Shown: positions 7,781-64,000 of the stretch, piece after piece
Layout of the letters: every line of letters starts with the position of its first letter
How positions within the stretch are numbered: the first letter of the stretch is position 1
Origin: Actinokineospora bangkokensis
Lineage (GTDB): Bacteria; Actinomycetota; Actinomycetes; Mycobacteriales; Pseudonocardiaceae
NCBI RefSeq assembly: GCF_001940455.1
Contig: NZ_MKQR01000009.1
Location: forward strand, 595,074-659,073
Reading direction: 5' to 3'
Length of the DNA stretch: 64,000 bases
The notes under the pieces: model-generated
The model's input: the letters and a program-made list of their open reading frames with translations, nothing else
Databases searched by the model: none
What the model was told of the DNA's origin: nothing
Program-made: the position numbers and the translations under genes

Positions 7781-10700
7781 ATGGCGAAGCACGAGGAGCT
7801 GGTGGCGAGCCTGAAGTGGGCCACCGCCGAGCTGCGCGAGGCGCGCAGGCGGCTGCGCGCGGCCGAGGAGCGCGACGGCGAGCCGATCGCCGTGGTCGGC
7901 ATGGCGTGCCGGTTCCCCGGCGGCGTCGACTCCCCGGAGGACCTGTGGGAGCTGGTCGCCGCGGGCACCGACGCGGTGGGCCCGTTCCCCACCGACCGCG
8001 GCTGGGACCTCGACGCCCTCTACCACCCCGACGCGGGCCACGAGGGCACCTTCCACGCCAGGGCGGGCGGGTTCCTGCGCGACCCCGCCGGGTTCGACGC
8101 GGGCTTCTTCGGCATCTCCCCGCGCGAGGCGCTGGCGATGGACCCGCAGCAGCGGGTGCTGCTGGAGATCGCGTGGGAGGCGTTCGAGCGCGCGGGCATC
8201 GCCCCGCACTCGCTGCGCGGCAGCGACACCGGCGTGTTCACCGGCGCCCCGTCCTCGCTGTACGGCCTGGGCTCGCCGGACCTGACCCGGGAGCTGGAGG
8301 GCTACGCGCTCACCGGGACCGGCATGGGCATGATGTCCGGCCGGGTCGCCTACACCCTGGGCCTGGAGGGGCCCGCGGTGTCGGTGGACACCCAGTGCTC
8401 GACCTCGCTGGTCGCCCTGCACCTGGCGTGCCGGGCGCTGGTGGCGGGCGACTGCTCGCTGGCCCTGGCGGGCGGGGTCACGATCATGCCCACGGTCGGG
8501 GCGTTCGTGGAGTTCTCCCGGCAGGGCGGGCTGTCGGCGGACGGGCGCTGCCGCGCCTTCGCCGCCGGGGCCGACGGCACCGGGTGGGCCGAGGGCGCGG
8601 GCGTGGTGGTGCTGGAGCGGCTGTCGGACGCGCGCAGGCGCGGGCACCGGGTGCTGGCGACCCTGCGCGGCACGGCGATCAACCAGGACGGCGCGTCCAA
8701 CGGGCTCACCGCCCCCAGCGGCCCGGCGCAGCGCCGGGTGATCCGGCAGGCGCTCGACGCGGCCGGGCTGTCGGTGGCCCAGGTCGACGCGGTGGAGGCG
8801 CACGGCACCGGGACCCGGCTGGGCGACCCGATCGAGGCCCAGGCCCTGCTGGCCACCTACGGCGGGCGCGGCGCCGACGCCGAACCGCTGCACCTCGGGT
8901 CGGTGAAGTCCAACATCGGCCACGCCCAGGCCGCCTCCGGCATCGCCGGTGTGATCAAGATGGTCATGGCGCTGCGCCGCGGCGTGCTGCCGATGACGCT
9001 GCACGCCGAGGACGCGACCCCGCACGTGGACTGGGCGGCCGGGCGGGTGCGGCTGCTCACCGAAGCGCGCCCGTGGCCGCGCCGGGACGAGCCGCGGCGC
9101 GCGGCCGTGTCGTCCTTCGGCGGCAGCGGCACCAACGCCCACGTCATCCTGGAGGAGGCGGACGAGCCCGAGCGCGTCGACAGCCCCGACCTGCCCGCGG
9201 TCCCCTGGCTGTTCTCCGCCGCCGACCCGGCGGGCCTGCGCGGGCAGGCCGAGCGCTTGGCCGCGTTCGCGCGCGAGGGCGACCACAGCGCCGCCGACAT
9301 CGGGCGCGCCCTGGTCACCACGCGTTCGCCGCTGCCGCACCGGGCCGTGGCGATCGGCGCAGATCGGGACGAGCTGGCGTCGGCGCTGGGGTCGTTCGAC
9401 CCGGAGTCGGTCGTCACCGGGCAGGCCGACCTCGCGGGCAAGGTCGTGTTCGTCTTCCCCGGCCAGGGCGCGCAGTGGGCGGGCATGGCCCGCGAGCTGC
9501 TCGACACCGCGCCGGTGTTCGCCGCGGCGCTGCGGGCGTGCGCGGACGCGCTGGCCCCGCACGTCGACTGGTCGCTGGAGGCGGTGGTCCGGCAGGAGCC
9601 CGGCGCGCCCGGGTTCGACCGGGTGGACGTGGTGCAGCCAGCCCTGTTCGCGGTGATGGTGTCGCTGGCGGAGCTGTGGAAGTCCTACGGCGTCACCCCG
9701 GCCGCGGTCGTGGGGCACAGCCAGGGCGAGCTGGCCGCCGCTTACATCGCGGGCGCCCTCAGCCTGGCCGACGCGGCACGGGCGGTCGCGCTGCGCAGCA
9801 GGGAGATCACCGCGCTGGCCGGCGCAGGCGGCATGGTGTCCGTCGCGCTGCCCGCCGCCGACGTCGAGCGCGAGCTGGCGGGCTACGCCGGGCGGGTGTC
9901 GGTCGCCGCGCACAACGGCCCCGCCACGACCGTGGTCGCGGGCGAGCCCGACGCGCTCGACGAGCTGGTGGCGGCGTGGACCGCGCGGGAGGTGCGTGCG
10001 CGGAAGATCCCCGTGGACTACGCCTCGCACTCCCCGCAGGTGGAGAAGCTCCAGGACAGCCTGCCCGCCGCGCTGGCGGGCCTCACCCCGCGCGCGGCGG
10101 AGGTCCCGTTCCACTCCACGGTGACCCGGACCGTGCTCGGCGGCACCGAGCTGGACGCGGACTACTGGTACCGCAACCTGCGCCAGACCGTGCACTTCGA
10201 GCCGGTCATCGCGTCGCTGGTGGAGTCCGGGCACGACGTGTTCATCGAGGTGAGCCCGCAGCCGGTGCTCACGCTGGCCGTGCAGCAGACCCTGGACGCG
10301 ACCGAGTCGCGGGCCGTCGTGGTCGGCTCGCTGCGCCGCGACGACGGCGGGTTGCGCCGCTTCCACACCTCCCTCGCGGAGGTCGCCGTGCGCGGGGCGT
10401 CCGTCGACTTCACGCCTGCTTTCGGCGCGGGGCCGCACAACCACGTCGACCTGCCCACCTACGCCTTCCAGCGCACCCGGTACTGGCTGTCCACCCCCGG
10501 CTTGCCCGGTGCGGGTCGCGCGGTCCCGGGCATCGGTTCGACCGGGCACCCGGTGCTCAACGCCGTGGTCGCCACGGGGGAGGGGCACCTGTTCACCGGC
10601 AGGCTCTCCCCGCGCGGCACGCCCTGGCTGGCCGAGCACGTCGTCGGGGGCACGGTCCTGCTGCCGGGGACCGCGTTCGTCGACCTCGCCCTGAGCGCGG

Positions 10701-13700
10701 GCGCCCACCTGGGCTGCACCACCCTGGCCGAGCTGACCTCCACGAGCCCGCTGGTGCTCGACCTCGACCGCGACACCGCCCTGCGGGTGCTGCTCGGCGC
10801 CCCGGACGACGCGGGCGACCGGGCCGTCAGCGTGCACGCCCGCCCGGAAGGCGCCGACGACGACACCCCGTGGACCTGCCACGCCACCGGCGTCCTGACC
10901 GACCCGACCGCCGTCACGGGGACTGAGCTGCGTGACTGGCCGCCCGCCAACGCCACACCCGTCGACCTCACAGGCTTCTACGACCGCCTGGCCGACGCGG
11001 GCATCGACTACGGCGAGCCTTACCGCGGCCTGCGCGCAGCCTGGCAGCACGACGGCTCGGTGTACGCGGAGATCGACACCGAGGCCGTGGCCGACAGCGG
11101 GTCGTTCGCGTTGCACCCCGCGCTGCTGGACGCCGCCTTGCAGTGCCTGGCCTTCGCGGGCAACGCCGCCGAGCAGCGGCGCATGCCGTTCGCGTGGAGC
11201 GGCGTGCGGCTGTTCGCGACCGGTGCCACCGCCCTGCGCTGCCGCCTGGACGTCGTTGACGCCGACACGGTCGCCCTGCTGGTGACCGACCCCGAGGGCG
11301 GGCCGGTGCTCGACGTGGCGTCGCTGCGCCTGCGGGCCGCCCCGCACCGGATCGCGCCCGCGGCGGACACGGCCCTGCACCGCCTCGACCTCGTGCCGGT
11401 GACCCTGCCCGACGCCGACGCGGCGGACGTGGACGTGCTCGACCTGCGCGCCCTCGTCGACGCGGGGGTGCCGGTCGCCGAGCGGGCGCTGCGTTTGACG
11501 TCGACGACGGCGGACGGCCTTCGGGAGTGGTTGGCCGCCAACGCGGCTGAGCGCAGGCTCGCGGTCGTCACCGGGATCGCCGCCGAGGACCCGGCCGTCG
11601 CCGCCGCGCACGGCCTGGTCCGCTCCGCCCAAGCCGAGCACCCCGAGCGGTTCGTGCTCATCGAGACGGATGAGGCGTCCGAACCCTCGGTGCTGCGCGC
11701 GGCGGCGTGCGGCGAACCGCAGCTCAGCCTGCGTGACGGTGCCGCCTGCGCCCCCAGGCTCGTCCGCTGGCGCCCGGAGCCCGCCGAGGACGTGTTCGGC
11801 GCGGAGGACACCGTGCTGGTGACCGGAGCGGCCGATGGCCTGGCCGGGCTCGTCGCCCGCCACCTGATCACCGCCCGGGGCGTGGCGGAGGTGCTGCTGC
11901 TGAGCCGCCGCGGGCCCGAGGCACCCGGCGCGGCGGAACTGGCCGCGGAGCTGGGCGACCGGCTCACCGTCCTGGCCTGTGACGCCTCGGACCTCGACGC
12001 GCTGCGCGCCGCCGTGGGGGAGCGCGGGCTCACCGGCGTCGTGCACACCGCGGCGTCGCTGGCGGACGGCTTGCTGGACTCGCTCGACGACGAGCGGCTG
12101 ACCCGGGTGTTCCGGTCCAAGGTGGACACCGCCGTCGCGCTCGACGCGCTGGCCGACGACCACGGCGTCCGCGCCTTCGTGCTGTTCTCGTCGGTCGCCG
12201 GGCTCCTGGGCGGCGCGGGGCAGGCCGCCTACACGGCCGCCAACTCCTTCCTGGACGCCCTGGCCCGGCAGCGGCGCGCGGCGGGACGGCCCGCGGTGTC
12301 GCTGGCCTGGGGCCTGTGGGGGGTGTCCGGCGGCATGGCCGGGCGCCTCGGGGACCGGCTGCTCGACCGTGCGCGCCGCGGTGGGCTCGTGCCGCTGTCG
12401 GCCGCGGAGGCGCTGGGGCTGTTCGACAGCGCCTGCGCAGCCGGGGACGCCGTCGTCGCCCCCGTCCGGTTCGACACCTCGGCTTGGCGGTCCGGCGCCA
12501 CCGCGCCCGGCGTGCTGCGCGGTCTCGTCCGCACCCCGGTCCGCAAGGCCGCCGCCAGGGCCGAGCGCTCGTCCTTCGCCGAGCGCCTGGCCGCGATGTC
12601 CCCCGCCGACCAGCGGCACGCGGTGCTGGAGCTGGTCAGCGCCCAAGCCGCCGCCGTGCTCGGCCACGCCGACGGCGACGCGCTCGACCCGGGCCGCGCC
12701 TTCCGCGACGTCGGTTTCGACTCGCTGACCGCCGTGGACCTGCGCAACCGGCTCAGCGCCGCCAGCGGTGCCCGCCTGCCTGCCACCGCCGTGTTCGACC
12801 ACCCCACCCCCAAAGCCCTGGCCGAGCAGCTGCACCGCGCCATCCTCGGCACCACGGCCCCGACCGCCGCGCCCACCACCACCCGGGCCCGGGAGGAGAC
12901 CGACGCCATCGCCGTCGTCGGCATGGCGTGCCGGTTCGGCGGCGGTGTGGACTCGCCGGAGGCGCTGTGGGAGGTGGTCGCCGGGGGAGTCGATGTCCTC
13001 GGACCCGTCCCGTCCAGCCGCGGGTGGCAGCGCGCGGGCGTGGGCGGCTACCTCGACGACCTCGCCGGGTTCGACGCAGGCTTCTTCGGCATCTCGCCGC
13101 GCGAGGCGCTGGCGATGGACCCGCAGCAGCGGTTGGTGCTGGAGTGCGCGTGGGAGGCGCTGGAGCGCGCGGGCGTCGACCCGCACACCCTGCGCGACAG
13201 CGACACCGGGGTCTACCTCGGCTCCAGCCTGCACGACTACGGCGAGCGGCTGAAGGGCATCCCCGAGCTGGAAGGGCTCCTGGCCACGGGCAACGCCGCG
13301 AGCGTGCTGTCCGGCCGGGTGTCCTACGTCCTCGGGCTGCACGGCCCGGCGGTGTCGGTGGACACAGCGTGCTCGTCCTCGTTGGTGGCACTGCACCTGG
13401 CCGCCCGAGCGCTGCGCGGCGGCGAGACCGGCATGGTGCTGGCGGGCGGGGTCACGGTGATGGCCACGCCGAGCCTCTTCGGGGAGTTCGAGCGCCAGGG
13501 CGGGCTCGCCGCCGACGGGCGCTGCAAGGCCTTCGGCGCGGGCGCGGACGGCACCGGGTGGGGCGAGGGTGTGGGCGTCCTGGTGCTGGAGCGGCTGTCG
13601 GACGCCCAGGCCGCGGGCCGCGAGGTGCTGGCGGTGCTGCGCGGCACGGCGGTGAACCAGGACGGCGCGTCCAACGGGCTCACCGCGCCCAGCGGCCCGG

Positions 13701-16700
13701 CCCAGCAGCGCGTCATCCGCACCGCCCTGGCCGACGCGGGCCTGTCCACCGCCGACGTGGACCTGGTGGAGGCGCACGGCACCGGCACCAGGCTCGGCGA
13801 CCCCATCGAGGCGGGCGCCCTGCTGGCCACCTACGGCCAGGACCGCGCCGAACCGCTCTACCTGGGCTCGGTGAAGTCCAACCTGGGCCACACCCAGGCC
13901 GCGGCGGGCGTGGCCGGGGTCATCAAGTCCGTCGAGGCGCTGCGGCGCGGTGTCGTGCCGCCGACGCTGCACGCCGACGAGCCGTCCCCCGAGGTCGACT
14001 GGGACTCCGGTCGCGTCGAGCTGGCGACGGCGGCCCGGCCGTGGCCGGAGGTGGGGCGGCCGCGGCGGGCGGGCGTGTCCGCGTTCGGCGTGAGCGGCAC
14101 CAACGCGCACGTCATCCTCGAACAGGCCCCCGCCGTGGACGCCCCTGGGCCGGTGGCGGTCACCGGGCCCGTGCCGTGGGTCGTGTCCGGCCGTGGCGCG
14201 GGCGGGCTGGCCAACCAGCTGTCCCGGCTTGCCGCCGCACCGGCTGACCTGCCCGTCGCCGACGTCGCGCACACCCTGGCGCTGCGGTCCCGGTTCGAGG
14301 ACCGGGCCGTGGCGGTGGGGGAGACGCGCGCGGAGTTCGCGGCCGCGCTGGCGGCGGGCGAGCTGATCAGCGGACGCGTCGCCCCCGCGGGCCCGGGTCG
14401 GGTCGTGTTCGTCTTCCCCGGTCAGGGCTCGCAGTGGGCTGGCATGGGCCGGGAGCTGTGGGAGACCTCGCCGGTGTTCGCCCGCTCCATGGAACGCTGC
14501 GCCGAGGTGCTGTCCGGCCTGGTCGACTGGTCGCTGCGGGACGTGCTGGCCGACGCCGACGCCCTGCTGCGGGTGGACGTGGTGCAGCCCGCCCTCTGCG
14601 CGGTGATGATCTCGCTGGCGGAGGTGTGGCGCGCGCACGGCGTGCGGCCGGACGCGGTGCTGGGCCACTCGCAGGGCGAGGTCGCCGCCGCGCACGTGGC
14701 GGGCATCCTCACCCTGGCGGACGCGCTGCGGGTGGTGTCCGCCCGCTCGCGGCTGCTGGCCGACCTGCACGGCGGCGGCATGCTCTCGGTGCAGGCCCGG
14801 CTGTCCGATGTGGAGGACGTGCTCGACGGCGTGTCCGTGGCCGCGGTGAACGGGCCCGCGTCGCTGGTGCTGTCGGGCCCCGAGGGGGAGCTGGAGCGCA
14901 TCCGGCTCTGGTGCGAGGAGCGCGACCTGCGGGCCAGGCTCGTCCCCGTCGACTACGCCTCGCACTCCCCGCAGGTGGAGGCCGTGCGCGACGCGCTGGC
15001 GGCGGAGTTGGCCGACCTGGCGCCTGCCGCCGGGGACGTCCCGCTGTACTCGACTGTGACGGGCGGGTTCCTCACGGGCGCCGAAGCCGACGCCGCCTAC
15101 TGGTACCGCAACCTGCGCGAGCAGGTCGGGTTCGCCCCTGCCGTGCGCGCGCTGGCCGAGCAGGGCTACCGCAGCTTCGTCGAGGTCAGCCCGCACCCCG
15201 TGCTGACGGCCGCCACCGAGGACACCCTGTCCGCGGAGGGCGTCGCCGGTGTCGTGGCGGGCACGCTGCGCCGGGGAGACGGCGGGGTGCGCCGGGTGCT
15301 GACGTCGCTGGCCGAGGTGTGGGTGCGCGGGGTCGAGGTGGACTGGTCGCCGGAGTTGGCGGGGGCGCGCAGGGTCGCGCTGCCGACCTACGGGTTCGAC
15401 CGGCGGCGGTACTGGCCCGAGCCGGTGGCGCAGACCGCGCCGGGTGTCGACGGGGAGTTCTGGTCGGCCGTCGACCGCGCCGACCTGCCGGGTCTGGCGC
15501 GGATGCTCGACGCCGATGACCTGCCCGCGTTGCAGGTGGTGGTGCCGCGCCTGTCGACCTGGTGGCGCGCGCGCCAAACCGAGCAGAGCACCCGCGACTG
15601 GCGCTACCGCGTGTCGTGGACGCCGGTGGAGGCACCGGACGCGGAGGTCGACCCGCGCTGGTTGGTCGTCGTCCCGCACGGCGCCCCGGGGTGGTCGAAC
15701 GCGGTGCTCGACGCGCTGCGCAGCCGAGGCACCATTGTCCCCGTCGACTTCACCCCCAATCGGGAGGACCTCGCTCGCGCGCTCGCGGAACCCGCCACGG
15801 CAGTGGTGTCCCTGCTGGCAGCGGACACCTCCATCACCGATGCCGGGGTCGCGAACGCCTGGACGTCCACGGCGCGGCTCGCGCAGGCGCTCAGCGACAC
15901 GGGCGCGTCCACACCGCTGTGGTGCGTGACCGCCGGGGCCGATGACGCGTGGCAGGACGGTCTCTGGGGACTCGGGCGCGTGCTCGGCCTGGAGAGCACG
16001 GGCGGCGGCTGCGGCCTCGTCGACATCGGCTCCACTGTGGAGGACGCCGTCGAGGATGATGCCGCCGACCTGCTCGCCCGCGTGGTGAGCGGCAGGGGTG
16101 ACGAGGACCAGCTTTCGATCCAGGGGTCCCGCTTGCTCGGCCGCCGCCTGGTCCGCGACGACACCCCCGCGCCCGCCCCGCGAGAGCGCGCGACGGGTTC
16201 GGGGGCCGTGCTCGTCACCGGCGGCTCCGGCGGCATCGGGTCCCGGCTGGTGCGCTGGCTCGTCCAACGCGGGGAACAGGTCGTGGTGGTCAGCCGGTCC
16301 GGCGGCGACCCCGACCTGCCCGGTGTGGAGGCCGTGGCCTGCGACATCACCGACCGGGAGGCCGTGACCCGGCTGCGCACCGAGCTGACCGGGCGCGGGG
16401 TCCGCGTGCGCTCGGTCTTCCACGCCGCGGGCGTCGTGGAGAGCGCGCTGGTCGGCACGAGCGACCTGACGGAGTGGGCCAGGGTGTGCGCGCCCAAGGT
16501 CGCGGGTGCCCGCCACGTCGACGAGGTGTTCGAGCCGGAGGAGTTCGTGGCGTTCTCGTCCAACGCCGGGGTGTGGGGCAGCGCCGGGCAGAGCGCCTAC
16601 GCCGCCGCGAACGCCTGGCTGGACGGGTTCGCCCGGCAGCGGCGGGCCCGCGGCATGCACGCGCTGTCGATCGCCTGGGGCGCGTGGGCGGAGGTCGGCA

Positions 16701-17443: not shown

Positions 17444-17456
17444 CCCTGCCCGCACC

Positions 17457-17678: not shown

Positions 17679-49420
<31,742 letters not shown>

Positions 49421-52400: not shown

Positions 52401-55400
52401 GTGGTCGGGCTCGGCGTGGGGGTGACGCGCGAGGACGTGGCCGCGCGCATCCGCGACGTGGTGGGCGAGCCGCCCGCCGGGGTGGTGTGCCTGCCCGCCT
52501 GGGACGAGCCGGGTGAGGCGGCCGTGGGCGGGTTGTGGGAGCTGGCGGTGGTCGCGCAGAGCCTGGCCGACCTCGACGTCACCGCCCCGCTGTGGTGCGT
52601 GACCCGCGGCGGTGTGGCCGTGGGTGTCGGGGAGTCGGTCGGCTCGCCCGTCGCCACGGGGCTGTGGGGCCTGGGCCGGGTGGTGGGGTTGGAGCGCGGC
52701 GGCGCCTGGGGCGGTGTCGTGGACGTGCCCGCCGGGCCGGTGGGCACCGGGACGTGGGCGCGGGTGGCGTCGGCGGTGTGCGGTGGTGTGCCGGGGGAGA
52801 ACGAGATCGCCCTGCGCCCGTCCGGGGTCTTCGGGCGGCGGCTGGTGCCCCACCGCGACTCCGGTGCCGCCGGGCGGGTCCCGTCGCTCAAGGGCGGCAC
52901 GGTGCTCGTCACCGGGGGCACCGGCGCGCTGGGGCTGCTGGCCGCGGACTGGTTGGCCGGGCACGGGGTGGCGCGGATCGCGCTGCTGAGCCGCCGGGGC
53001 GCGGGCGCCGACGGGGTGGCTCGGCTGCGGGAGCGGCTGGCCGAGCGCGGTGTGGCGCTGGAGGTGCACGCCTGCGACGTGGCCGACCGGGTGGGCCTGG
53101 CCGCGGTGGTCGACCGCGTCGGCGCGGCCGGGCCGCCGCTGCGCGGGGTGCTGCACGCGGCGGGCGTGGTCGAGAACGACCTGGTGGTGGACCTGTCCTG
53201 GGAGCGGTTCGCGGACGTGGTGCGCGCCAAGGTGGTCGGCGGGTGGAACCTGCACGAGGTCACCCGGGACCTGGACCTGGCGCTGTTCGTGGCGTTCTCC
53301 TCCGTCGCGGGCGTGTGGGGCTCGGGCGCCCAGGGCGCCTACGCGGCGGGCAACGCCTTCCTCGACGGCCTCGTCGACCACCGGCGCGGGCTCGGCCTGG
53401 CCGGGACGTCGGTGGCGTGGGGCCCGTGGGAGGGCGCGGGCATGGCGGGCGACACCGAGGTGGTGCGCGAGCTGCACCGCCGCGGGCTGGCGCGCATCGC
53501 CCCCGAGGTCGGCTTCGCCGCGCTGGACCGGGTGGTCGCCGGGGGCGAGGCGTTCGCCGTGGTGGCCGACGCGGACTGGGCGCGGCTGGTGCCGCCCTTC
53601 GCCGCCGCGGGCATGGCCGGGCTGTTCACCGAGATCCCCGCCGCGCGCGCCGCCGTCGAGGGGCCGCGCCCGGCCGAGCGGGGCGGCGGGCTGGCCGAGG
53701 TGCTCGCGCCGCTGCCCGAGGTCGAGCGCGACCGGGTGCTGGTCGACCTGGTGCGCGAGCACGGCGCTGTGGTGCTCGGCCACCACGACAGCGGTCGCTT
53801 CGACGTCGACCGCCCGTTCCGCGACCTCGGGTTCGACTCGCTGACCGCGGTGGAGCTGCGCGACCGGCTCGTCACCGCCACCGGCACGGCGCTGCCCGCC
53901 TCCGCCGTCTTCGACTTCCCCACCCCGCGCGCGCTGGCCGCCGACCTGCGCACCCGGCTCACCGGCGCCGCCGCCACCGCCGCGCCGACCACCGGGACCC
54001 CGGTGGCGCCCGCGGTCCCGCTCGACGACGACCCGGTGTGCGTGGTGGGCATGGCCTGCCGCCTGCCGGGGGGCATCGCCTCGCCGCAGGACTGCTGGGA
54101 CCTGGTGGTCGACGGCCGGGAGGGCATCGGCCCGTTCCCCGCCGACCGCGGCTGGGACGTGCGCGCCGAGGGCGGGTTCCTCGACGGCGCCGCCGACTTC
54201 GACGCCGCGTTCTTCGGGATCTCCCCGCGCGAGGCGCTGTCGATGGACCCGCAGCAGCGGGTGGTGCTGGAGAACGCGTGGGAGGCGCTGGAGGACGCCG
54301 GGATCGACCCGGTGTCGCTGCGCCGCTCGGACACGGGCGTGTTCATGGGCGTGACCTACTCCGGCTACCAGGCCGCGGTGGAGGCCGCCGCGGAGGAGGC
54401 AGCGCGCGGCTACGGGCTCACCGGGTCGGCGCCGAGCGTGGTGTCCGGGCGGATCGCCTACGCGCTGGGGCTGGAGGGCCCGGCGGTGTCGGTGGACACC
54501 GCGTGCTCGTCGTCGCTGGTGGCGCTGCACTGGGCGGCGCAGGCGCTGCGGCGCGGGGAGTGCTCGCTGGCGCTGGCCGGTGGGGTGACCGTGATGGCCA
54601 CGCCGGGGGCGTTCGTGGAGTTCGGGCGCCAGGGCGGGCTGGCCTCCGACGGCCGGTGCAAGGCGTTCTCCGACGACGCCGACGGCACCGGGTGGTCCGA
54701 GGGCGTCGGCGTCGTGGTCGTGGAGCGGATGTCGGACGCGCGGCGCAACGGGCACCGGGTGCTGGCCGTGCTGCGCGGTTCGGCGGTGAACTCCGATGGC
54801 GCATCCAACGGGTTGACCGCGCCGAACGGGCCGTCGCAGGAGCGGGTGATCCGCCGGGCGCTGGCCGACGCCGGGCTCACCGCCGCGGAGGTCGACGTGG
54901 TGGAGGCGCACGGCACGGGCACCCGCCTCGGTGACCCGATCGAGGCGCAGGCGGTGCTGGCCACCTACGGCCAGGACCGCGCCGAGCCGCTGTGGCTGGG
55001 CTCGATCAAGTCCAACATCGGCCACACCCAGGCCGCCGCCGGTGTCGCCGGGGTGATCAAGGTGGTGCAGGCGATGCGGCACGGGCTGCTGCCCCGCACC
55101 CTGCACGCCGAGGTCCCCTCCACCCACGTCGACTGGACCGCGGGCAGCGTGCGGCTGCTGACCGAGCAGCGGGCGTGGCCGCAGACCGGGCGCCCGCGCC
55201 GCGCGGGCGTGTCGTCGTTCGGCATCAGCGGCACCAACGCCCACGTCATCCTCGAACAGGCCCCGCCGACCGCCCCGGTGCCTGCGACGGCGGCCGTGGT
55301 GCCGTGGGTGCTCTCGGCCCGCGACCCGCGCGCCCTCGCCGCGCAGGCTGGCCGCGTGGCCGCCGCGGACGCGCCCGCGACCGCGGTCGGCGCCGCGCTC

Positions 55401-58400
55401 GCCCGCTCCCGCACCGGCCTGCCGCTGCGCGCGGTCGTCCTCGGCCCCGGCCCGGACGACCTGCGCGCCGGGCTGCGCGCGCTGTCCGAGGGCGGGCGGG
55501 CGCCCGGGTTGACCACCGGCGCGGCCCCCGCCGACCCCGGCCCGCTCGCGGCGGTGTTCGCGGGGCAGGGCGCGCAGCGGCCGGGCATGGGCCGCGACCT
55601 GCACGAGCGGCACCCGGTGTTCGCCGCGGCGCTCGACGAGATCTGCGCGCAGTTCGACCTGCTGCTGGACCACCCGCTGCGGGAGGCGATGTTCACCGGC
55701 GGCGAGCGGCTCGACCGCACCGCCTGCACCCAGGCCGCGCTGTTCGCCCACGAGGTCGCGCTGTGGCGGCTGGCGGAGTCCTTCGGCGTGCGCGCCGACT
55801 ACCTCATCGGCCACTCCATCGGCGAGCTGACCGCCGCCCACGTCGCCGGTGTGCTGACCCTGCCCGACGCGTGCGCGCTCATCGCCGCCCGGGGCAGGCT
55901 GATGCAGGCCCTGCCCGAGGGCGGGGCGATGGTGGCGGTGGAGGCCACCGAGGACGAGCTGCTGCCGCTGCTGGACGGGCGCACCGGGGAGGTGGGGATC
56001 GCCGCGGTGAACTCCCCGCGCTCGGTGGTGCTCTCCGGCGACACCGACGCCGTGCTGGAGATCGCCGCGGCCGTCGCCGCCGACGGGCGCAAGACGCGGC
56101 GGTTGCCGGTGAGCCACGCGTTCCACTCGCCGCGGGTCGACGCGATGGTGGCCGACTTCGCCCGCGCGGCGGCCGAGGTGCGCTACCACCCGCCGCGGCT
56201 GCCCGTGGTGTCCAACGTGACCGGTGCGCTCGTCGAGCCCGAGCTGCTGTGCTCCCCGCAGTACTGGGTGTCGCACGTGCGCAGGCCGGTGCGCTTCGCC
56301 GACGGCATCACCCACCTGATCGGCCGGGGCGTGCGGCGCTTCGTGGAGGTCGGCCCGGACGCGGTGCTGTCCTCGGCCATCCACGAGTGCGGCGACGAGC
56401 CGGTCCAGGTGACGGCGCTGCAACGGGCGGGCCGCCCGGGGGCGATCACGGCGATGTCCGGGTTCGCCGCCCTCTACACCCAGGGCACCCCGATCGACTG
56501 GACCGCGGCCTTCGACACCGAGCAGCCCCCCGTCACCCTGCCGACCTACCCGTTCCAGCGCGAGCGCTACTGGCTGGCGCCCGCCGCCGCGCGCCACCCC
56601 CTGCACGCCAACGGCTACGAGGTCACCTGGCAGCCGCTGGCGCGGGGCGTGGCCGACGCGCCGGGTGAGTGGGTGGTGCTCGCGGCGGAGGACGACGCGG
56701 CCGCGGCGCTGCTGGCGGGGGCGCTGCCCGACGCCGAGGTGCGCGCGGTGCCCGAGTGGGACCGGGTCGCGCTGCGCGACGCGGTGAAGGTGCCCGCGGG
56801 CGCGGGTGTGCTGGCGCTCCCGGGCTCGGTGGACGACCTGCTCGCCCTGGTGCAGGCCGCGGCCGACGTCGACGTCCAGGGGCCGCTGTGGTGCCTGACC
56901 GTCGATGACGAGCAGGCGGCGGGCATCCGAGGCCTCGGCAGGGTCGCCGCGCTGGAGCAGCCCGCGCGCTGGGGCGGGCTGGTGGACGTGTCCGGCCCGC
57001 TGACCGCCGAGTCGGTCGACGCCGTCTGCGCGGTGCTGTCCGGCGACTACGCCGACGACCAGGTGCGGGTGCGCGGCTCGCAGGTGTCCGGGCGCCGCGT
57101 CGTCCGCCTCAGCGGGTCGCCCGAGGCCGAGTGGACCCCGCGCGGCACGGTGCTGATCACCGGCGGCACCGGCGGTCTCGGCGTGGAGGTCGCCCGCTGG
57201 GCCGCCCGCGCGGGCGCCGACCACCTCGTCCTGGTCAGCCGCGCGGGCGAGGCCAAGACCCCCGAGCTGCGCGCGGAACTGGCGGCGCTCGGCGCGGGTG
57301 TCACCTTCGCCGCGTGCGACGTCGCCGACCGCGACGCCCTCGCCGCGGTGCTGGCCGCCGTGCCCGCCGAGCACCCGCTCACGGCCGTGGTGCACGCGGC
57401 GGGGGTCGGCCAGTCCTGCCCGCTGGGCGAGATGACCACCGCCGAGCTGGACCGGGTCCGCGCGGCGAAGGTCGGCGGCGCCGAGCACCTGCACGAGCTG
57501 ACCCGCGACCTGGACCTGGACGCGTTCGTGCTGTTCTCCTCCATCGCCGGGGTGTGGGGCAGCGGCGCCCAGGGCGCCTACGCCGCGGCGAACGCCCACC
57601 TCGACGGGCTGGCCGAGCGCCGCCGCGCCGCGGGCCTGCCCGCCACCGCGATCGCCTGGGGCCCCTGGGCGGGCGCCGGTCTCGCCGTGGCCGAGGGCGG
57701 CGCCGAGCAGCTGGCCCGCCGCGGGCTGCCGCTGATCGACCCGGCCGCGGCCCTGGCGGGCATGGCCCGGCTGGTCGGGTCCGGGGCGACCGCGGCGGTG
57801 TTCGCCGAGGTCGACTGGAGCCGCTTCGCCCCCGCCTTCACCGCGCTGCGGCCGAGCGCGCTGTTCGACGGCATCGCGGGCGCCGAGACCACCACCGCGC
57901 CGGAGCCCGCGGGCGACGGGCGGTTCCTGCGCGAGCTGTCCGCGCTGGCCGGTGCCGCCCGGCGCACCGCGGTGCTGGACCTGGTGCGCGCCGAGGTCGC
58001 GGCCGTGCTCGGGTTCGCCGGGCCCGCCGACGTGCCCGCCGCGCGCGCCTTCCAGGAGATGGGCTTCGACTCGCTGACCGCCGTGGAGCTGCGCAACGCG
58101 CTCTCCGGCGCCACCGGTGAGGCGCTGCCCGCGACCCTGGTCTTCGACCACCCCACCCCGGCCGCGCTGGCCGACCACCTGCACCGGCTGCTCGACGACG
58201 GCGGGCGCCCGCTGGCGGCGCTGCTCGACGACCTCGACCGGGTGCGCGCCGGGCTGAGCGGGGCGGACCTGTCGGCCACCGAGCGGCTCACCGTGCAGCG
58301 GCGGCTCACCGAGCTGGCCCTGGCGGTCACCGGGCGGGCCGCCGAGCCCGAGCCCGCGGCCGAGGACGCCGCCGACCTGACCGACGCGACCGACGACGAG

Positions 58401-58439
58401 CTCTTCGACGCCCTCGACGGCGAGTTCGGCGCACGCTGA
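49461..58439 (+). CDS. Gene F, type I PKS, two modules (KS-AT-KR-ACP twice), 2,992 aa
   Basis: This is a bimodular extension subunit. ATG 49461 follows a GGGAGG ribosome site near 49450. The head is MTDDEKLLGYLKKVTADL. Residues: KS1 Cys 197, ACP1 Ser 1460, KS2 Cys 1682, ACP2 Ser 2871, then a long helical docking tail ending in DELFDALDGEFGAR. Both ATs predict malonyl and both KRs are A-type. It should add two C2 units with L-hydroxyls, so the hydroxyl configuration switches between subunits E and F. The gap to gene G is 23 bases and contains the ribosome site of G, consistent with one transcript. Confidence 0.95.
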   Translation: MTDDEKLLGYLKKVTADLHRTRQELAEAGAREHEPIAVVGMACRFPGGVSGPEEFWDLLAGGVDAMTGFPADRGWDGAGEPGAVGGFLSGVGEFDADFFGISPREALAMDPQQRLLLEVSWEALERARIDPEGLRGSSTGVFVGTNGQDYPGLLTGAVEGAEVSGHAAIGNISSVLSGRVAYALGLEGPAVSVDTACSSSLVALHWAVRALRAGDCSLALVSGVTVMSTPAVFAEFARQGGLAADGRCKAFSDDADGTAWGEGIGVLVVERLSEAQRLGHRVLAVVRGSAVNSDGASNGLTAPNGPAQQRVITHALADAGLGADEVDAVEAHGTGTVLGDPIEAQALLATYGRGRARGPLLLGSVKSNIGHTQAAAGVAGVIKMIQAMRHRVLPRTLHAAEPTTRVDWTAGSVELLTSARPWDSEGPRRAGVSSFGISGTNAHVILEEVPEDEHAEPGPAAVVPWVLSARDESGLRAQAERLAGVSGPVVDAAWSLATTRAALDERAVVVGGDLDEVRAGLGVLPVRGRVGGAGRVGALFSGQGAQRPGMGARLRARFPVFANALAEVCAHFDPAVERAMTTGDGLDETRFTQPALFAYEVALFRLLESWGVRPEVLLGHSVGEIAAAHVAGVWSLADACALVAARGRLMQALPPGGAMLAVEATEDEVRPLLTAGTSLAAVNGPRAVVVSGVDSEVDALAARFADRRTTRLAVSHAFHSPLVEPALAEFEQVVRGLTASPPTLPVISNLTGRADADLTDPRYWVRHAREAVRFADGYAELVARGVDAVVEVGPRGVLTPAAGALAELPVVPLGGESPTEEHALLTGVGKLWVRGVPVDWTAAFDGLSPRVVDLPTYPFQRERFWPTPAERVAEADRGPTDRLWELVACEDVAGVAELLGAGPGTRVEGVAGVVSVLGSWRRRVEEQSIVESCRYAVRWVSLTPTRATTAGLWVLLAAAGAEGAVEALAASLRACGARTAVVGLGVGVTREDVAARIRDVVGEPPAGVVCLPAWDEPGEAAVGGLWELAVVAQSLADLDVTAPLWCVTRGGVAVGVGESVGSPVATGLWGLGRVVGLERGGAWGGVVDVPAGPVGTGTWARVASAVCGGVPGENEIALRPSGVFGRRLVPHRDSGAAGRVPSLKGGTVLVTGGTGALGLLAADWLAGHGVARIALLSRRGAGADGVARLRERLAERGVALEVHACDVADRVGLAAVVDRVGAAGPPLRGVLHAAGVVENDLVVDLSWERFADVVRAKVVGGWNLHEVTRDLDLALFVAFSSVAGVWGSGAQGAYAAGNAFLDGLVDHRRGLGLAGTSVAWGPWEGAGMAGDTEVVRELHRRGLARIAPEVGFAALDRVVAGGEAFAVVADADWARLVPPFAAAGMAGLFTEIPAARAAVEGPRPAERGGGLAEVLAPLPEVERDRVLVDLVREHGAVVLGHHDSGRFDVDRPFRDLGFDSLTAVELRDRLVTATGTALPASAVFDFPTPRALAADLRTRLTGAAATAAPTTGTPVAPAVPLDDDPVCVVGMACRLPGGIASPQDCWDLVVDGREGIGPFPADRGWDVRAEGGFLDGAADFDAAFFGISPREALSMDPQQRVVLENAWEALEDAGIDPVSLRRSDTGVFMGVTYSGYQAAVEAAAEEAARGYGLTGSAPSVVSGRIAYALGLEGPAVSVDTACSSSLVALHWAAQALRRGECSLALAGGVTVMATPGAFVEFGRQGGLASDGRCKAFSDDADGTGWSEGVGVVVVERMSDARRNGHRVLAVLRGSAVNSDGASNGLTAPNGPSQERVIRRALADAGLTAAEVDVVEAHGTGTRLGDPIEAQAVLATYGQDRAEPLWLGSIKSNIGHTQAAAGVAGVIKVVQAMRHGLLPRTLHAEVPSTHVDWTAGSVRLLTEQRAWPQTGRPRRAGVSSFGISGTNAHVILEQAPPTAPVPATAAVVPWVLSARDPRALAAQAGRVAAADAPATAVGAALARSRTGLPLRAVVLGPGPDDLRAGLRALSEGGRAPGLTTGAAPADPGPLAAVFAGQGAQRPGMGRDLHERHPVFAAALDEICAQFDLLLDHPLREAMFTGGERLDRTACTQAALFAHEVALWRLAESFGVRADYLIGHSIGELTAAHVAGVLTLPDACALIAARGRLMQALPEGGAMVAVEATEDELLPLLDGRTGEVGIAAVNSPRSVVLSGDTDAVLEIAAAVAADGRKTRRLPVSHAFHSPRVDAMVADFARAAAEVRYHPPRLPVVSNVTGALVEPELLCSPQYWVSHVRRPVRFADGITHLIGRGVRRFVEVGPDAVLSSAIHECGDEPVQVTALQRAGRPGAITAMSGFAALYTQGTPIDWTAAFDTEQPPVTLPTYPFQRERYWLAPAAARHPLHANGYEVTWQPLARGVADAPGEWVVLAAEDDAAAALLAGALPDAEVRAVPEWDRVALRDAVKVPAGAGVLALPGSVDDLLALVQAAADVDVQGPLWCLTVDDEQAAGIRGLGRVAALEQPARWGGLVDVSGPLTAESVDAVCAVLSGDYADDQVRVRGSQVSGRRVVRLSGSPEAEWTPRGTVLITGGTGGLGVEVARWAARAGADHLVLVSRAGEAKTPELRAELAALGAGVTFAACDVADRDALAAVLAAVPAEHPLTAVVHAAGVGQSCPLGEMTTAELDRVRAAKVGGAEHLHELTRDLDLDAFVLFSSIAGVWGSGAQGAYAAANAHLDGLAERRRAAGLPATAIAWGPWAGAGLAVAEGGAEQLARRGLPLIDPAAALAGMARLVGSGATAAVFAEVDWSRFAPAFTALRPSALFDGIAGAETTTAPEPAGDGRFLRELSALAGAARRTAVLDLVRAEVAAVLGFAGPADVPAARAFQEMGFDSLTAVELRNALSGATGEALPATLVFDHPTPAALADHLHRLLDDGGRPLAALLDDLDRVRAGLSGADLSATERLTVQRRLTELALAVTGRAAEPEPAAEDAADLTDATDDELFDALDGEFGAR
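49560..53965 (+). other. Module F1: KS-AT(malonyl)-KR(A1)-ACP
   Basis: KS Cys is at 50049-50051, and the loop after GVFVG is GTNGQDY. The AT has GHSVG and HAFH at 51606-51617 (malonyl), and its surroundings closely resemble those of the ATs of A and D5. The KR has GGTGALG near 52914, no LDD (VVEN), Trp at 53316 in GVWGSGAQGAY and Tyr at 53340-53342 followed by AAGN, so A1. ACP Ser is at 53838 in [12 protein letters not shown]. Predicted step: C2 with an L-hydroxyl. Confidence 0.85.
54024..58195 (+). other. Module F2: KS-AT(malonyl)-KR(A1)-ACP
   Basis: The KS starts with CRLPGG, has a GVTYSGY loop and Cys at 54504-54506. The AT starts with FAGQGAQ, has GHSIG and HAFH at 56115-56126 (malonyl). 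The KR has GGTGGLG near 57162, no LDD (VGQS), Trp at 57555 in GVWGSGAQGAY and Tyr at 57579-57581, so A1. ACP Ser is at 58071-58073. Predicted step: C2 with an L-hydroxyl. Confidence 0.85.
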
Positions 58440-58462
58440 CCCACCACCCAAGGAGTGCTCCG

Positions 58463-61400
58463 GTGAGCGTTGAGCAGAAACTGCGCGACTACCTCAAGCG
58501 CGCGACGACCGAGCTGCGCGAGGCGAACCGGCGGGTGCGCGAGCTGGAGGACCAGCGCGTCGAACCGGTGGCGGTGGTGGGCATGGCCTGCCGCTACCCC
58601 GGCGGGGTCGGGACGCCCGAGCAGCTGTGGGAACTGGTGGCCGCGGGCACCGACGCGATCCGCGAGGTGCCCGCCGACCGCGGCTGGGACCTGGCGGAGC
58701 TGGCCGGGGCCGGGGCGCTGCCGGTGGGCGGGTTCCTCGACGACGTCGGCGGGTTCGACGCGGGCCTGTTCGGCATCTCCCCGCGCGAGGCGCTGGCGAT
58801 GGACCCCCAGCAGCGGCTGCTGCTGGAGTGCGCGTGGGAGGCGCTGGAGTCGGCCGGGATCGCCCCGACCGCGCTGGCCGGGACGGACACGGGGGTGTTC
58901 GTCGGCACCAGCGGGCAGGACTACCCGGCGCTGCTGGCCGCGCTCGGCGGGGTGGAGGAGGTGGCCGGGCACGTCGCGACGGGCACGCTGGCGTCGGTGC
59001 TGTCCGGCCGCGTCGCCTACGCCCTGGGCTTGCAAGGGCCCGCCCTGTCGGTGGACACCGCGTGCTCGTCGTCGCTGGTGGCCCTGCACCAGGCGGTGCT
59101 GTCGCTGCGGCGCGGGGAGTGCTCGTCGGCGTTGGTCGGCGGGGTGACGGTGATGACGACGCCTGGGGCGTTCGTCGAGTTCGCCCGGCAGGGCACGTTG
59201 TCGGCGGACGGGCGGTGCAAGGCGTTCGCGGAGGGCGCGGACGGCATCGCGTGGGCCGAGGGCGTGGGCGTGGTCGTGGTGGAGCGGCTGTCCGACGCAC
59301 GCCGCAACAACCACCCGGTGCTCGCGGTGATCCGGGGTTCGGCGGTGAACTCCGACGGCGCCTCCAACGGCCTGACCGCCCCCAACGGTCCGTCGCAGCA
59401 GGCGGTGATCACCCGGGCGCTGGCCGACGCGGGCCTGTCGTCGTCCGATGTGGACGTCGTGGAGGCGCACGGCACGGGGACCGCGCTGGGTGACCCGATC
59501 GAGGCCCAGGCCCTGCTGGCCACCTACGGGCAGGACCGGCCCGCGGACGAGCCGCTGCTGCTGGGGTCGCTCAAGTCCAACATCGGCCACACCCAGGCCG
59601 CCGCGGGCCTGGCGGGTGTGATCAAGGTGGTGCAGGCGATGCGGCACGGGCTGTTGCCGCGCACCCTGCACGTCACCCGCCCCACGACGCGCGTGGACTG
59701 GGCCGCGGGCGCGGTGCGGGTCGTGCAGGAGGACTGCGCGTGGCCGGAGTCGGACCGCCCGCGCCGCGCGGCGGTGTCGTCGTTCGGCGTGAGCGGCACC
59801 AACGCCCACGTCGTCCTCGAACAGGGCGACCCGCTGCCCACCCCGGAGCCGACGACCACCAGTCACGCCCTGCCGTGGCTGCTCTCCGCCGCCGACACCG
59901 ACGCCCTGCGCGCCCAGGCGGCGCTGTTGGGCGAGGTGGACGCCGCCCCCGCCGACGTGGCGCACTCGCTGCTGCGCACACGCGCCACCCTGGGCCGCCG
60001 CGCCGTCGTCGTCGGCACCGAGCCCGCCGACTTCACCACCGCCCTGCGCGCGCTCGCCGCGGGCACCCCGACCGCCACCGCCGTCGAGGGCACCGCCGAC
60101 CTCGACGGGCGGGTGGTGTTCGTCTTCCCCGGGCAGGGCGCCCAGTGGGCGGGGATGGGCCGCGAGCTGCTGGCGACCTCGCCGGTGTTCGCCGAGCGCA
60201 TCCGCGCCTGCGAGGCCGCGCTGGCCCCGCACGTCGACTGGTCGCTGACCGCGGTGCTGCGCGACGAGCCCGGCGCCGCGTCGCTGGACCGGGTGGACGT
60301 GGTGCAACCGGCCCTGTTCGCGGTGATGGTGTCGCTGGCGGCGCTGTGGCGGGCGCACGGCGTCGAGCCCGCCGCGGTCATCGGGCACTCCCAGGGGGAG
60401 ATCGCCGCCGCGCACGTGGCGGGCGCGCTCTCGCTGGCGGAGGCCGCCCGGGTCGTGGCCGTGCGCAGCCGGGCGCTGGCCGCGCTGCGCGGCACCGGCG
60501 GGATGCTGTCGGTGCGGTTGCCGCACGCCGAGGTCGAGGCCGAGCTGGCGGACGTGCCGGGTGCCGCCGTCGCCGCGGTCAACGGGCCCGCCGCGGTGGT
60601 GGTGGCGGGGGAGGTCGGCGCGCTCGACGAGCTGGAACGCCGGTGGGCCGCCCAGCAGGTGCGCACGCGGCGGATTCCGGTGGACTACGCCTCCCACACC
60701 GCCCACGTCGAACGCATCCACGCCGAGCTGACCGCGGCCCTGGGCGTGGTGGAGCCGGGGCGGTGCTCGGTGCCGTTCTTCTCCACCGTCACCGGTTCCC
60801 CGGTCGAGGGCGGCGAGCTGGACGCGGACTACTGGTACCGCAACCTGCGCCAGGTGGTGCGGTTCGAGCCGGTCGTGGGCGCGTTGATCGACTCCGGGCA
60901 CGACGTGTTCGTGGAGCTGAGCCCGCAGCCGGTGCTGACCATGGCGGTGCAGGAGTCCGTGGAAGCGCGCGGTTCCCGGGGCATTGCCGTCGGGTCGCTG
61001 CGCCGCGAGGAGGGCGGGCTGACCCGGTTCCTGACCTCGCTTGCCGAGGCACACGTGCGCGGCGCGCACGTGGACTGGGCCGCCGCCGTGCCGCCCGCCT
61101 CGGTGGTGCCGCTGCCCACCTACCCGTTCCAGCACAAGCGGTTCTGGCCCACGGCGACCCGGCAGCGCCGGGACGTGGGCGCGCTGGGCCTGACCGGGGT
61201 CACCGACCACGCGTTCCTCGGGGCGGCGACCGCCCTGGCCGGGGGTGGGTCGGTGCTGTCCGGCCGGGTCGGCACCGGGGAGCACCCGTGGTTGGGCGAT
61301 CACGCCGTGGGCGGGTCGGTCGTGTTCCCCGGCACCGGTTTCGTGGACCTGGCGCTGCGCGCGGGCGACGTGCTCGGCTGCGACACCCTCGACGACCTGA

Positions 61401-64000
61401 CGCTGGTGGCCCCGCTGGTGCTGCCCGCGACCGGGGCCGTGCGGGTGCAGGTGGTGCTGGACGGCACCACCGTCGGCATCCACTCCCGCCCGGAGGGGGC
61501 GGCCGAGGACGCGCCGTGGACGCTGCACGCCACCGGAACGCTGTCCGCCGATGCCGATGCCGATGCCGATGCCGACGCCGCCGACACCGCCTTCGCCGCG
61601 CAGTGGCCCCCGGAGGGCGCTAAGCCGGTGGACCTGGGCGGGTTCCACGACGACCTGGCCGCGGCGGGCATCGCCTACGGGCCGGTGTTCCGCGGCCTGG
61701 AGCGGGCGTGGCGGCGCGGCACTGAGGTGTTCCTCGACGTGCACCTGCCCGAGCCCGCCTCTGCCGCCGAGCACGTGGTGCACCCGGCGCTGCTCGACGC
61801 CGCCCTGCAGGGGGTCGCGCTGGTGTCGGAGGGCGCAGCCAAGGTCCCGTTCTCCTGGGACGGGGTCACCCTGGGCGCGGTGGGCGCCGAGCGGGTGCGC
61901 GTCCGGCTGGCCCCGGCCGGTGCCGATGCGGTGTCGCTGGTCGCGGTGGACGACGCGGGTGACCTCGTGGTCGCCGCGCAGGCGGTGACCCTGCGTCCGG
62001 TCGACCCGACCGCGTTCGCCGCCACCACCGCCGCCGAGCCGCTGCTGGAGCTGCGGTGGACCCCGGTGGACCTGCCCGCCGCCGAGCCGGGCCCGGACAC
62101 GTGGCAGGTCGTGGGCGAGGACGTCTTCGGCGTCGTCGGGCTGCCCGGTGCCGCGCGGGCGTTGTGCGTGGCAGGGGGTGAGCCGCGCGAGCAGACCCAC
62201 CGGGTGCTCGCTGCGTTGCAGGACGCCTTGGCGGGCGAGGACCGGTTGGTGGTCCTCACCCGGGGTGCCATGGGCGAGGACGACGACGCGGTGGACTTGG
62301 CGGGGGCGGCGGTGTGGGGCCTGGTGCGCTCGGCCACCACCGAGCACCCGGACCGGTTCGCCGTGGTGGACACCGACGAGGCGTCCGTGCCGCTGCTGCC
62401 CGCCGTCCTCGCGGCCGGGCTGGGCGAGGCCGTGCTGCGCGGCGGGGAGTGCCGGGTGCTGGGCCTGGCCAAGCCACGCGGACCGCGGGGGCCGGCGCGG
62501 CCGGTGGCCGAGGGCACGGCGGTGATCACCGGCGGCACCGGCGACATCGGCGCCGAGGTCGCCCGGCACCTGGCGACCCACCACGGGGTGCGCGACCTGC
62601 TGCTGCTCAGCCGCACGGGCTCGGCCCCGGAGCTGGCGGCGGAGCTGACGGCCCTGGGCGCGACGGCCCGCGTCCGCGCCTGCGACGTGGCCGACCGCGC
62701 CGCGCTGGCCGCCGCCCTCGACGAGGTCGAGCGGGTGGGGTCGGTGTTCCACGCCGCCGGGGTCGTCGACGACGCCGTGCTGACCGGCCTGACCCCCGGT
62801 CACCTCGACCGCACGCTCGCGGCCAAGCTGGACGGCGCGCGGTGGCTGCACGAGCTGACCGAGGACCACCAGCTCAGCCACTTCGTGCTGTTCTCCTCGA
62901 TCGCGGGCCTGCTCGGCAGCGCGGGGCAGGGCAACCACGCCGCCGCCAACGCTGCCCTCGACGCCTTCGCCCGCCACCGCCACACCCTCGGCCTGCCCGC
63001 CACGTCGCTGGCGTGGGGGCCGTGGGAGGGCGGCACGGTGGGCAGGCTGTCGGCCGCCGACACCGCCCGCATGGCCCGCGGCGGGCTGCGGATGCTCGAC
63101 GCCGCCAGCGGGATGGCCCTGCTGGACGCGGCCCTGGACTCGCCGGAGGCGGTGCTCGCGCCCGTCCTCGTCGGCGGACCGGCGACCGTGGCCGACCAGG
63201 TGCCGCCGCTGCTGCGCGGGGTCGTCGGCCCCGCCCGCCGCCGCACCGCCCGCACCGGCGCGGCCACGGGTGGGCTGGCCGCCGCCCTGGCCGGGGTCGC
63301 GGCCGGGCAGCGGCACGAGCTTGTGGTGGACGTGGTGCGCCGGGAGGTCGCCGGGGTGCTGGGCCACGCCAGCGCGCGCGACGTCGACCCGCACCGCACG
63401 TTCAAGGACCTCGGGTTCGACTCGCTGACCGCGGTCGACCTGCGCAACCGGCTCTCGGCCGCGACCGGGCTGCGGTTGCAGGCCTCGCTGGTCTTCGACT
63501 ACCCGGACGCCACCGCGCTGGCCGGGTTCCTGCTCGACTCGCTGGCGGGCACCACCCCGGCACCGGCCACGACCGCGCCACGCGCCTCGGCGGACGAGCC
63601 GATCGCGATCGTCGGCATGGCCTGCCGGTTCCCCGGCGGCGCGGACTCGCCCGCCGCGCTGTGGGAGCTGGTGGCCGCGGGCACCGACGCCATCGGCCCG
63701 TTCCCGGTCGACCGCGGCTGGACGGCCACCGGCGGGGTCGGCGGGTTCGTGCACACCGCCACCGAGTTCGACGCGGAGTTCTTCGGCATCTCCCCGCGCG
63801 AGGCGCTGGGCATGGACCCGCAGCAGCGGTTGACCCTGGAGTGCGCCTGGGAGGCGCTGGAGCGCGCCGGGATCGACCCGCACGGCCTGCGCCGCAGCGA
63901 CACCGGGGTGTTCATCGGCCTGTCGCACTCGGTGTACCAGGACGCGGGGGGCGGGCTGGACGAGGCGAAGGGCTTCGCCGTCACCGGTACCTCCCCGAGC
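58463..64000 (+). CDS. Gene G, type I PKS, 3'-truncated (KS-AT-DH-KR-ACP-KS...)
   Basis: The gene starts at GTG 58463 after AAGGAG (58450-58455) and stays open to the window end, 1,846 codons. The GTG start is supported by the following DYLKRATTEL coiled-coil head, which is of the same type as in D and E. Residues: KS1 Cys 201, DH His 947, KR position of the catalytic Tyr 1492 (His here), ACP Ser 1654, second KS from about 1711 to the cut. It should receive the chain from gene F. The remaining modules, and perhaps the thioesterase, lie downstream of this window. Confidence 0.95.
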   Translation, partial: MSVEQKLRDYLKRATTELREANRRVRELEDQRVEPVAVVGMACRYPGGVGTPEQLWELVAAGTDAIREVPADRGWDLAELAGAGALPVGGFLDDVGGFDAGLFGISPREALAMDPQQRLLLECAWEALESAGIAPTALAGTDTGVFVGTSGQDYPALLAALGGVEEVAGHVATGTLASVLSGRVAYALGLQGPALSVDTACSSSLVALHQAVLSLRRGECSSALVGGVTVMTTPGAFVEFARQGTLSADGRCKAFAEGADGIAWAEGVGVVVVERLSDARRNNHPVLAVIRGSAVNSDGASNGLTAPNGPSQQAVITRALADAGLSSSDVDVVEAHGTGTALGDPIEAQALLATYGQDRPADEPLLLGSLKSNIGHTQAAAGLAGVIKVVQAMRHGLLPRTLHVTRPTTRVDWAAGAVRVVQEDCAWPESDRPRRAAVSSFGVSGTNAHVVLEQGDPLPTPEPTTTSHALPWLLSAADTDALRAQAALLGEVDAAPADVAHSLLRTRATLGRRAVVVGTEPADFTTALRALAAGTPTATAVEGTADLDGRVVFVFPGQGAQWAGMGRELLATSPVFAERIRACEAALAPHVDWSLTAVLRDEPGAASLDRVDVVQPALFAVMVSLAALWRAHGVEPAAVIGHSQGEIAAAHVAGALSLAEAARVVAVRSRALAALRGTGGMLSVRLPHAEVEAELADVPGAAVAAVNGPAAVVVAGEVGALDELERRWAAQQVRTRRIPVDYASHTAHVERIHAELTAALGVVEPGRCSVPFFSTVTGSPVEGGELDADYWYRNLRQVVRFEPVVGALIDSGHDVFVELSPQPVLTMAVQESVEARGSRGIAVGSLRREEGGLTRFLTSLAEAHVRGAHVDWAAAVPPASVVPLPTYPFQHKRFWPTATRQRRDVGALGLTGVTDHAFLGAATALAGGGSVLSGRVGTGEHPWLGDHAVGGSVVFPGTGFVDLALRAGDVLGCDTLDDLTLVAPLVLPATGAVRVQVVLDGTTVGIHSRPEGAAEDAPWTLHATGTLSADADADADADAADTAFAAQWPPEGAKPVDLGGFHDDLAAAGIAYGPVFRGLERAWRRGTEVFLDVHLPEPASAAEHVVHPALLDAALQGVALVSEGAAKVPFSWDGVTLGAVGAERVRVRLAPAGADAVSLVAVDDAGDLVVAAQAVTLRPVDPTAFAATTAAEPLLELRWTPVDLPAAEPGPDTWQVVGEDVFGVVGLPGAARALCVAGGEPREQTHRVLAALQDALAGEDRLVVLTRGAMGEDDDAVDLAGAAVWGLVRSATTEHPDRFAVVDTDEASVPLLPAVLAAGLGEAVLRGGECRVLGLAKPRGPRGPARPVAEGTAVITGGTGDIGAEVARHLATHHGVRDLLLLSRTGSAPELAAELTALGATARVRACDVADRAALAAALDEVERVGSVFHAAGVVDDAVLTGLTPGHLDRTLAAKLDGARWLHELTEDHQLSHFVLFSSIAGLLGSAGQGNHAAANAALDAFARHRHTLGLPATSLAWGPWEGGTVGRLSAADTARMARGGLRMLDAASGMALLDAALDSPEAVLAPVLVGGPATVADQVPPLLRGVVGPARRRTARTGAATGGLAAALAGVAAGQRHELVVDVVRREVAGVLGHASARDVDPHRTFKDLGFDSLTAVDLRNRLSAATGLRLQASLVFDYPDATALAGFLLDSLAGTTPAPATTAPRASADEPIAIVGMACRFPGGADSPAALWELVAAGTDAIGPFPVDRGWTATGGVGGFVHTATEFDAEFFGISPREALGMDPQQRLTLECAWEALERAGIDPHGLRRSDTGVFIGLSHSVYQDAGGGLDEAKGFAVTGTSPS
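58562..63540 (+). other. Module G1: KS-AT(methylmalonyl)-DH-KR(Tyr to His)-ACP
   Basis: KS Cys is at 59063-59065. The AT has DVVQP, GHSQG and YASH at 60686-60697 (methylmalonyl). The DH is intact: HAVGGSVVFP (His 61301), YGPVF near 61676 and Asp 61796 in LLDAALQ, with a short Asp-Ala repeat inside. The KR has GGTGDIG near 62531, VDD, Lys and the Ser of FSS (62897), but the catalytic Tyr is His (62936-62938, GNHAAAN). ACP Ser is at 63422-63424. The domain count predicts an alkene. The KR change predicts a methyl-branched ketone unless His can act or another KR serves this ACP. Confidence 0.82.
61550..61579 (+). repeat. Hexanucleotide tandem repeat GATGCC in the G1 DH
   Basis: GATGCC occurs four times in tandem (61550-61573), followed by GACGCC (61574-61579), and encodes an Asp-Ala run in a loop of the G1 dehydratase, away from its His and Asp. 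The unit is in frame, so copy-number changes by slippage would only lengthen or shorten the loop. Confidence 0.9.
63593..64000 (+). other. Module G2: start of a KS, cut by the window end
   Basis: About 136 residues of an N-terminal KS region are visible, with EPIAIVGMACRFPGG, the [17 protein letters not shown] stretch and a GLSHSVY loop. The cut comes before the catalytic Cys. The KS shows that gene G has at least two modules. Its extender specificity and reductive domains are not visible. Confidence 0.9.

Follow-up and report, generated by a model that had tools for sequence, protein, structure and literature searches.

Conserved ketoreductase anomalies of three kinds in dehydratase-containing modules of a polyketide assembly line from Actinokineospora bangkokensis

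The window analysed here, a 64,000-nucleotide stretch of the genome of Actinokineospora bangkokensis (C9:595074-659073; genome of 7,453,713 bases in 32 contigs), carries part of a modular polyketide synthase (PKS) in which several modules combine a dehydratase (DH) with an altered or missing ketoreductase (KR). It lies inside the published limits of cluster #16, labelled oligosaccharide/PKS I and assigned 20 modules (PMC6273641; papers given by PMC number are cited from excerpts). No product of this cluster is named in the excerpt of that paper, and no title on the product appeared in literature search listings. The domains were mapped on the window joined to its flanking stretches, using hidden Markov models (HMMs) trained on this line's own domains. 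The nine PKS proteins of the map (Z, A to H) together hold a loading module, the 19 extension modules of the line and its thioesterase (TE). The 20 sets of ketosynthase (KS), acyltransferase (AT) and acyl carrier protein (ACP), the integrated ATs, the loading module (whose KS carries Gln in place of Cys) and the C-terminal TE identify the system as a modular cis-AT type I PKS. DH domains are present in modules C1, D3, D5 and G1 of the window, and in G2 beyond it.

An earlier sequence-only reading had proposed that every DH-containing module has a damaged or missing KR. The domain map and residue check bore out its particulars: the loop TGAADGLAG in C1, the absence of a KR from D3, Ser to Gly in D5, Tyr to His in G1, and intact KRs in the ten window modules that lack a DH. 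The generalization holds for the four DH modules of the window and fails at G2, a DH module whose KR is intact in three of three orthologous lines. The same reading had overlooked an enoylreductase (ER) between the DH and KR of D5. The alignment of the line's KRs with their relatives, which it had recommended, revealed that the anomalies are fixed in the orthologous lines and that they differ in kind. Residues, domain order, conservation and base rates were observed directly, and activities and products are inferred from them. Judged from these comparisons, the four anomalies are old, conserved, fixed features belonging to three kinds. A single cause shared by all four is not supported, because the alterations are not of one type, G2 does not conform, and KRs without Ser recur elsewhere. 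The reading we favour, with a probability of roughly 60%, is a polyol-type macrolide line with three distinct outcomes at the anomalous modules.

KR conservation was scored over 35 columns with at least 90% identity across 153 further KRs of the genus; these were drawn from 158, of which five had been set aside beforehand as odd or cut (12, 10, 6, 12 and 3 columns changed). The 153 controls alter on average 1.4 (beta modules), 0.9 (gamma) and 1.0 (fully reducing, or delta) columns, with maxima of 10, 4 and 5. For DHs, 43 conserved columns were taken from 76 other DHs, and the control means were 4.4 (sd 4.3) in gamma and 2.8 (sd 1.9) in delta modules. All positions below are in window numbering on the plus strand unless stated otherwise.

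Module C1 (7871..12838) has the order KS-AT-DH-KR-ACP in the HMM map, with an AT of methylmalonyl type according to its motif YASH (motif reading from PMC5331325). Its KR (11807..12325) keeps Ser, Tyr, Lys and Asn, with changes in the NADPH motifs: TGAADGLAG (11822-11848) stands for TGGTGxLG and HTAA (12044-12067) for HAAG. The changes occur in all three lines, that of the window and two orthologous ones (G to D, or A in the third line; G to A; HAAG to HTAA), and the Tyr is retained throughout. Four of the 35 columns are altered, and three of the four belong to the NADPH pocket, as also in A. auranticolor. The DH (10541..11353) keeps its His and Asp and alters 2-3 of 43 columns; the Pro of its YGP motif is lost in all three lines (YGE in the window species, YGG in both orthologues). 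The C1 KR accompanies a DH, unlike KR3 of the erythromycin (DEBS) and pikromycin PKSs, which lie in modules without a DH, and its closest KRs come mostly from DH modules (8/9 and 9/9). It resembles these C-type examples in keeping the catalytic residues with changed NADPH motifs, the published marker of the type (PMC11228615, PMC5331325). A KR that retains Tyr next to an altered NADPH site is classed as non-reducing, C type (PMC11228615), and by its sequence the C1 KR belongs there. Having lost residues of the NADPH pocket, the C1 KR would not reduce; the module would then pass on a ketone and leave its DH without a substrate, an outcome that we consider very likely. C2-type KRs epimerise (PMC5331325), and the C1 KR might act in this way on the alpha-methyl group introduced by the module's AT, whose methylmalonyl type would allow it.

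In module D3 (26382..30161) the HMM map and motif check gave KS-AT(malonyl-type)-DH-ACP, and the order is identical in A. auranticolor. The KR is missing in both lines that cover D3, the window's own included. The DH (29040..29849) has an altered YGP motif (YAP here, YDG in A. auranticolor) and changes 7 and 10 of 43 columns, the only DH of this set that is somewhat high against the control means. With its KR gone, D3 would likewise hand on a ketone past an idle DH, and this too appears likely.

Module D5 (34803..40580; HMM map, ER alignment) has the complete reductive loop, KS-AT(malonyl-type)-DH-ER-KR-ACP, so that DH, ER and KR all lie between AT and ACP as in a fully reducing module. Its DH (37392..38171) is nearly intact, with one of 43 columns changed (two in A. 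auranticolor). The ER (38604..39521) aligns to the ER-containing solved chains 8g7w and 3slk and to 5dp1. Both 8g7w and 3slk (the latter from the spinosyn PKS) are DH/ER/KR pieces of fully reducing modules and share the ER-KR architecture with D5 over about 590 aligned residues; their KRs carry Ser where that of D5 has Gly. The D5 KR (39534..40052) has this Ser to Gly change at 39918-39920 and retains Tyr, Lys, Asn and the NADPH loop, and is thus not of the C type. In the three lines it alters 2, 3 and 1 of 35 columns: the Ser every time, the rest conservatively. In the animal fatty acid synthase (FAS), KR mutants S2014A and Y2027F singly retained reductive elongation, the double mutant was dead, and the Ser is said to act mainly in substrate alignment (PMC12856111). 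By this precedent the D5 KR, which keeps Tyr, is likely active, and the G1 KR, which keeps Ser, could be either. The D5 KR would then work without the catalytic Ser, with Tyr protonating, and the complete loop would very probably deliver a methylene. Loss of Ser may be tolerated mainly where a DH destroys the hydroxyl again, the substrate-aligning role of Ser then being irrelevant.

Module G1 (58553..63538; HMM map, AT motif) is KS-AT(methylmalonyl-type)-DH-KR-ACP, with a DH (61202..62017) that keeps its catalytic motifs and alters 5-6 of 43 columns (3-5 in the DH of G2). In its KR (62513..63031) the Tyr is replaced by His at 62936-62938, and Ser, Lys and Asn are kept. The His is present in all three lines, together with the main loop glycines, HAAG, and Asp or His after TGGTG; 3, 1 and 1 of 35 columns are altered, the Tyr every time and the rest conservatively. 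Module 12 of the tetromadurin PKS (MadAVI) is likewise a DH module with a KR that lacks the catalytic Tyr, but it has a deletion in the NADPH site and a hydroxyl in the product (PMC7489565), whereas G1 keeps its main NADPH motifs and has specifically His in all three lines. We lean slightly towards a G1 KR that still reduces, by residual or His/Ser-assisted activity, giving an alkene rather than a ketone. In A. auranticolor, a low-complexity insert of about 185 residues splits the G1 DH (protein G, G016:C5:301936-314076), and other linkers of this protein are lengthened too.

The frequency of such changes was determined in two samples. Among the 158 genus KRs of other PKSs, Ser was replaced by Ala or Gly in 0/84 beta, 4/45 gamma and 2/29 delta modules. 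The second sample comprised 123 KRs (three beta rows without the segment were excluded) in 40 windows that had been selected, by likeness to the D5 KR, from other genomes in the family; Ser was lost here in 1/37, 2/50 and 9/33, respectively. Pooled, the losses amount to 11/62 delta, 6/95 gamma and 1/121 beta (P = 3e-5 for delta versus beta and 4e-4 for DH modules versus beta), counts that are not independent: five of the 18 cases (all four gamma of the genus sample and one delta) come from cluster #19, and five others (delta), all from a single genus, have almost the same motif. The replacing residue was Ala or Gly in all 18. Matches of the D5 KR in the family (30 loci returned, at most one per genome) included eight without Ser, namely the three orthologous lines and 5/27 others. 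KRs without Ser thus turn up repeatedly, most often in fully reducing modules. Tyr was lost in 2/278 control KRs, and none of these lacked both Ser and Tyr. The sequence-only reading had held chance scatter onto the DH modules to be improbable. The rarity of Tyr loss and the bias of Ser loss towards DH modules agree with this and give the association a partial cause; unrelated changes at a normal background rate, landing on the four DH modules of a 64-kb view, are a very improbable explanation.

Cluster #19 of the same genome (C11:1-115000), whose product is not named in the excerpt of PMC6273641, has KR Ser to Ala in 5/8 DH modules, and its listed DH-less KRs keep Ser. It differs from the present line in having no Tyr loss and in one DH-less KR (bg138) with a shortened NADPH loop. 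The picture of a truly dead loop is offered by A. auranticolor module bg154 (G016:C11:135001-175000), a DH module with a degraded KR (12/35 columns, Tyr to His, Lys to Gln) and a DH degraded as well (16/43 columns).

We also asked whether the KS after each module resembles KSs that follow DH modules, using its seven nearest neighbours; this was right for 84/92 and 64/85 controls, and wrong for 3/12 (window species) and 4/12 (A. auranticolor) of this line's KR-only modules. The KSs after D5 and G1 have such neighbours (5-7 of 7), and that after C1 does not (3/7 and 1/7). These results bear on the proposal that all four modules make ketones, their KRs having been switched off one by one for needed carbonyls and the DHs and the D5 ER being relics. 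The four changes do strike catalytic or cofactor positions or delete the domain, each of them is fixed in two or three lines, the DH motifs of C1 and D3 are altered, and a Tyr-less KR stands beside a seemingly active DH in tetromadurin module 12, though the product has a hydroxyl there (PMC7489565). Besides the KS results for D5 and G1, however, the intact KR of G2 speaks against it, and a relic loop in D5 would be unlikely to have kept, in the orthologues too, its ER, an almost unchanged DH and nearly all other conserved KR residues. A ketone with a relic DH, as first suggested, fits C1 (NADPH pocket changed in 3/3 lines) and D3 (KR absent in 2/2) and fits D5 poorly; as an account of all four modules it is unlikely. 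Noncanonical working residues, the other early suggestion, suit D5 best and possibly G1, and would not explain the four together.

Less probable still is a reductase acting in trans, either an aldo/keto reductase or a neighbouring module's KR, that supplies the hydroxyl to the DHs of C1, D3 and G1. A gene for an aldo/keto reductase (C9:669170-670021, minus strand; 74097-74948 in window numbering, outside the window) directly follows the final PKS gene, and A. auranticolor has it in the corresponding position with 77% conservation. Because conservation extends to many of the flanking genes farther out, this position proves nothing, and nothing ties the gene to these modules. Use of a neighbour's KR has been proposed for tetromadurin module 12 (PMC7489565), and the KS after D3 resembles those following DH modules (5/7 neighbours in both species); the altered YGP motifs of C1 and D3 argue against DHs in use.

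Apart from the selection and non-independence of the Ser sample, several observations weigh against three distinct outcomes. Neither the KS result for D3 nor its DH, altered yet inside the control range, favours a ketone at that module. In the A. auranticolor D5 DH the Gly of HxxxG is replaced by Asp, and the animal FAS mutants were impaired. All four tetrad residues (Tyr, Ser, Lys, Asn) are stated to be present in all reductase-active KRs (PMC5331325), and D5 lacks the Ser and G1 the Tyr. Both other Tyr to His KRs, set aside before scoring, are otherwise degraded (6 and 12 of 35 columns), a charged or amide residue after TGGTG, like the Asp/His of G1, occurs in only 9/280 other KRs, and the G1 lid has Val where sister KRs have Met or Leu. 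Finally, sequence conservation can reflect structural need rather than catalysis; C1 is well conserved too.

Modules that make ketones and retain leftover domains are nothing unusual. Less usual are the skew of Ser loss towards modules that dehydrate and the fixation of His at G1 across three lineages, both of which can be tested with excised domains; the line offers a clean test of whether His can replace the catalytic Tyr. In product prediction from PKS genes, a KR that has lost one of the tetrad residues is commonly taken to be inactive. If the Ser-less KRs (11/62 of the sampled fully reducing modules) are active, ketones predicted in this way are wrong.

The intact KRs of the DH-less modules, located by the HMM map and residue check, are those of A2 (1979..2488), B1 (6442..6963), C2 (16202..16693), D1 (21159..21695; tetrad intact), D2 (25305..25838), D4 (33681..34211), E1 (43994..44515), E2 (48167..48676), F1 (52896..53435) and F2 (57144..57674). 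Long minus-strand frames lie opposite the PKS genes at 7274-17524 (3416 aa) and 49392-58451 (3019 aa); we did not read them as genes and attribute them to the G+C content of 77%. Outside the window, the PKS is flanked by glycosyltransferases of macrolide type (C9:567011-570693, 575403-578070 and 671496-673445), one of them in frame with a P450-like stretch, which is consistent with the published label oligosaccharide/PKS I.
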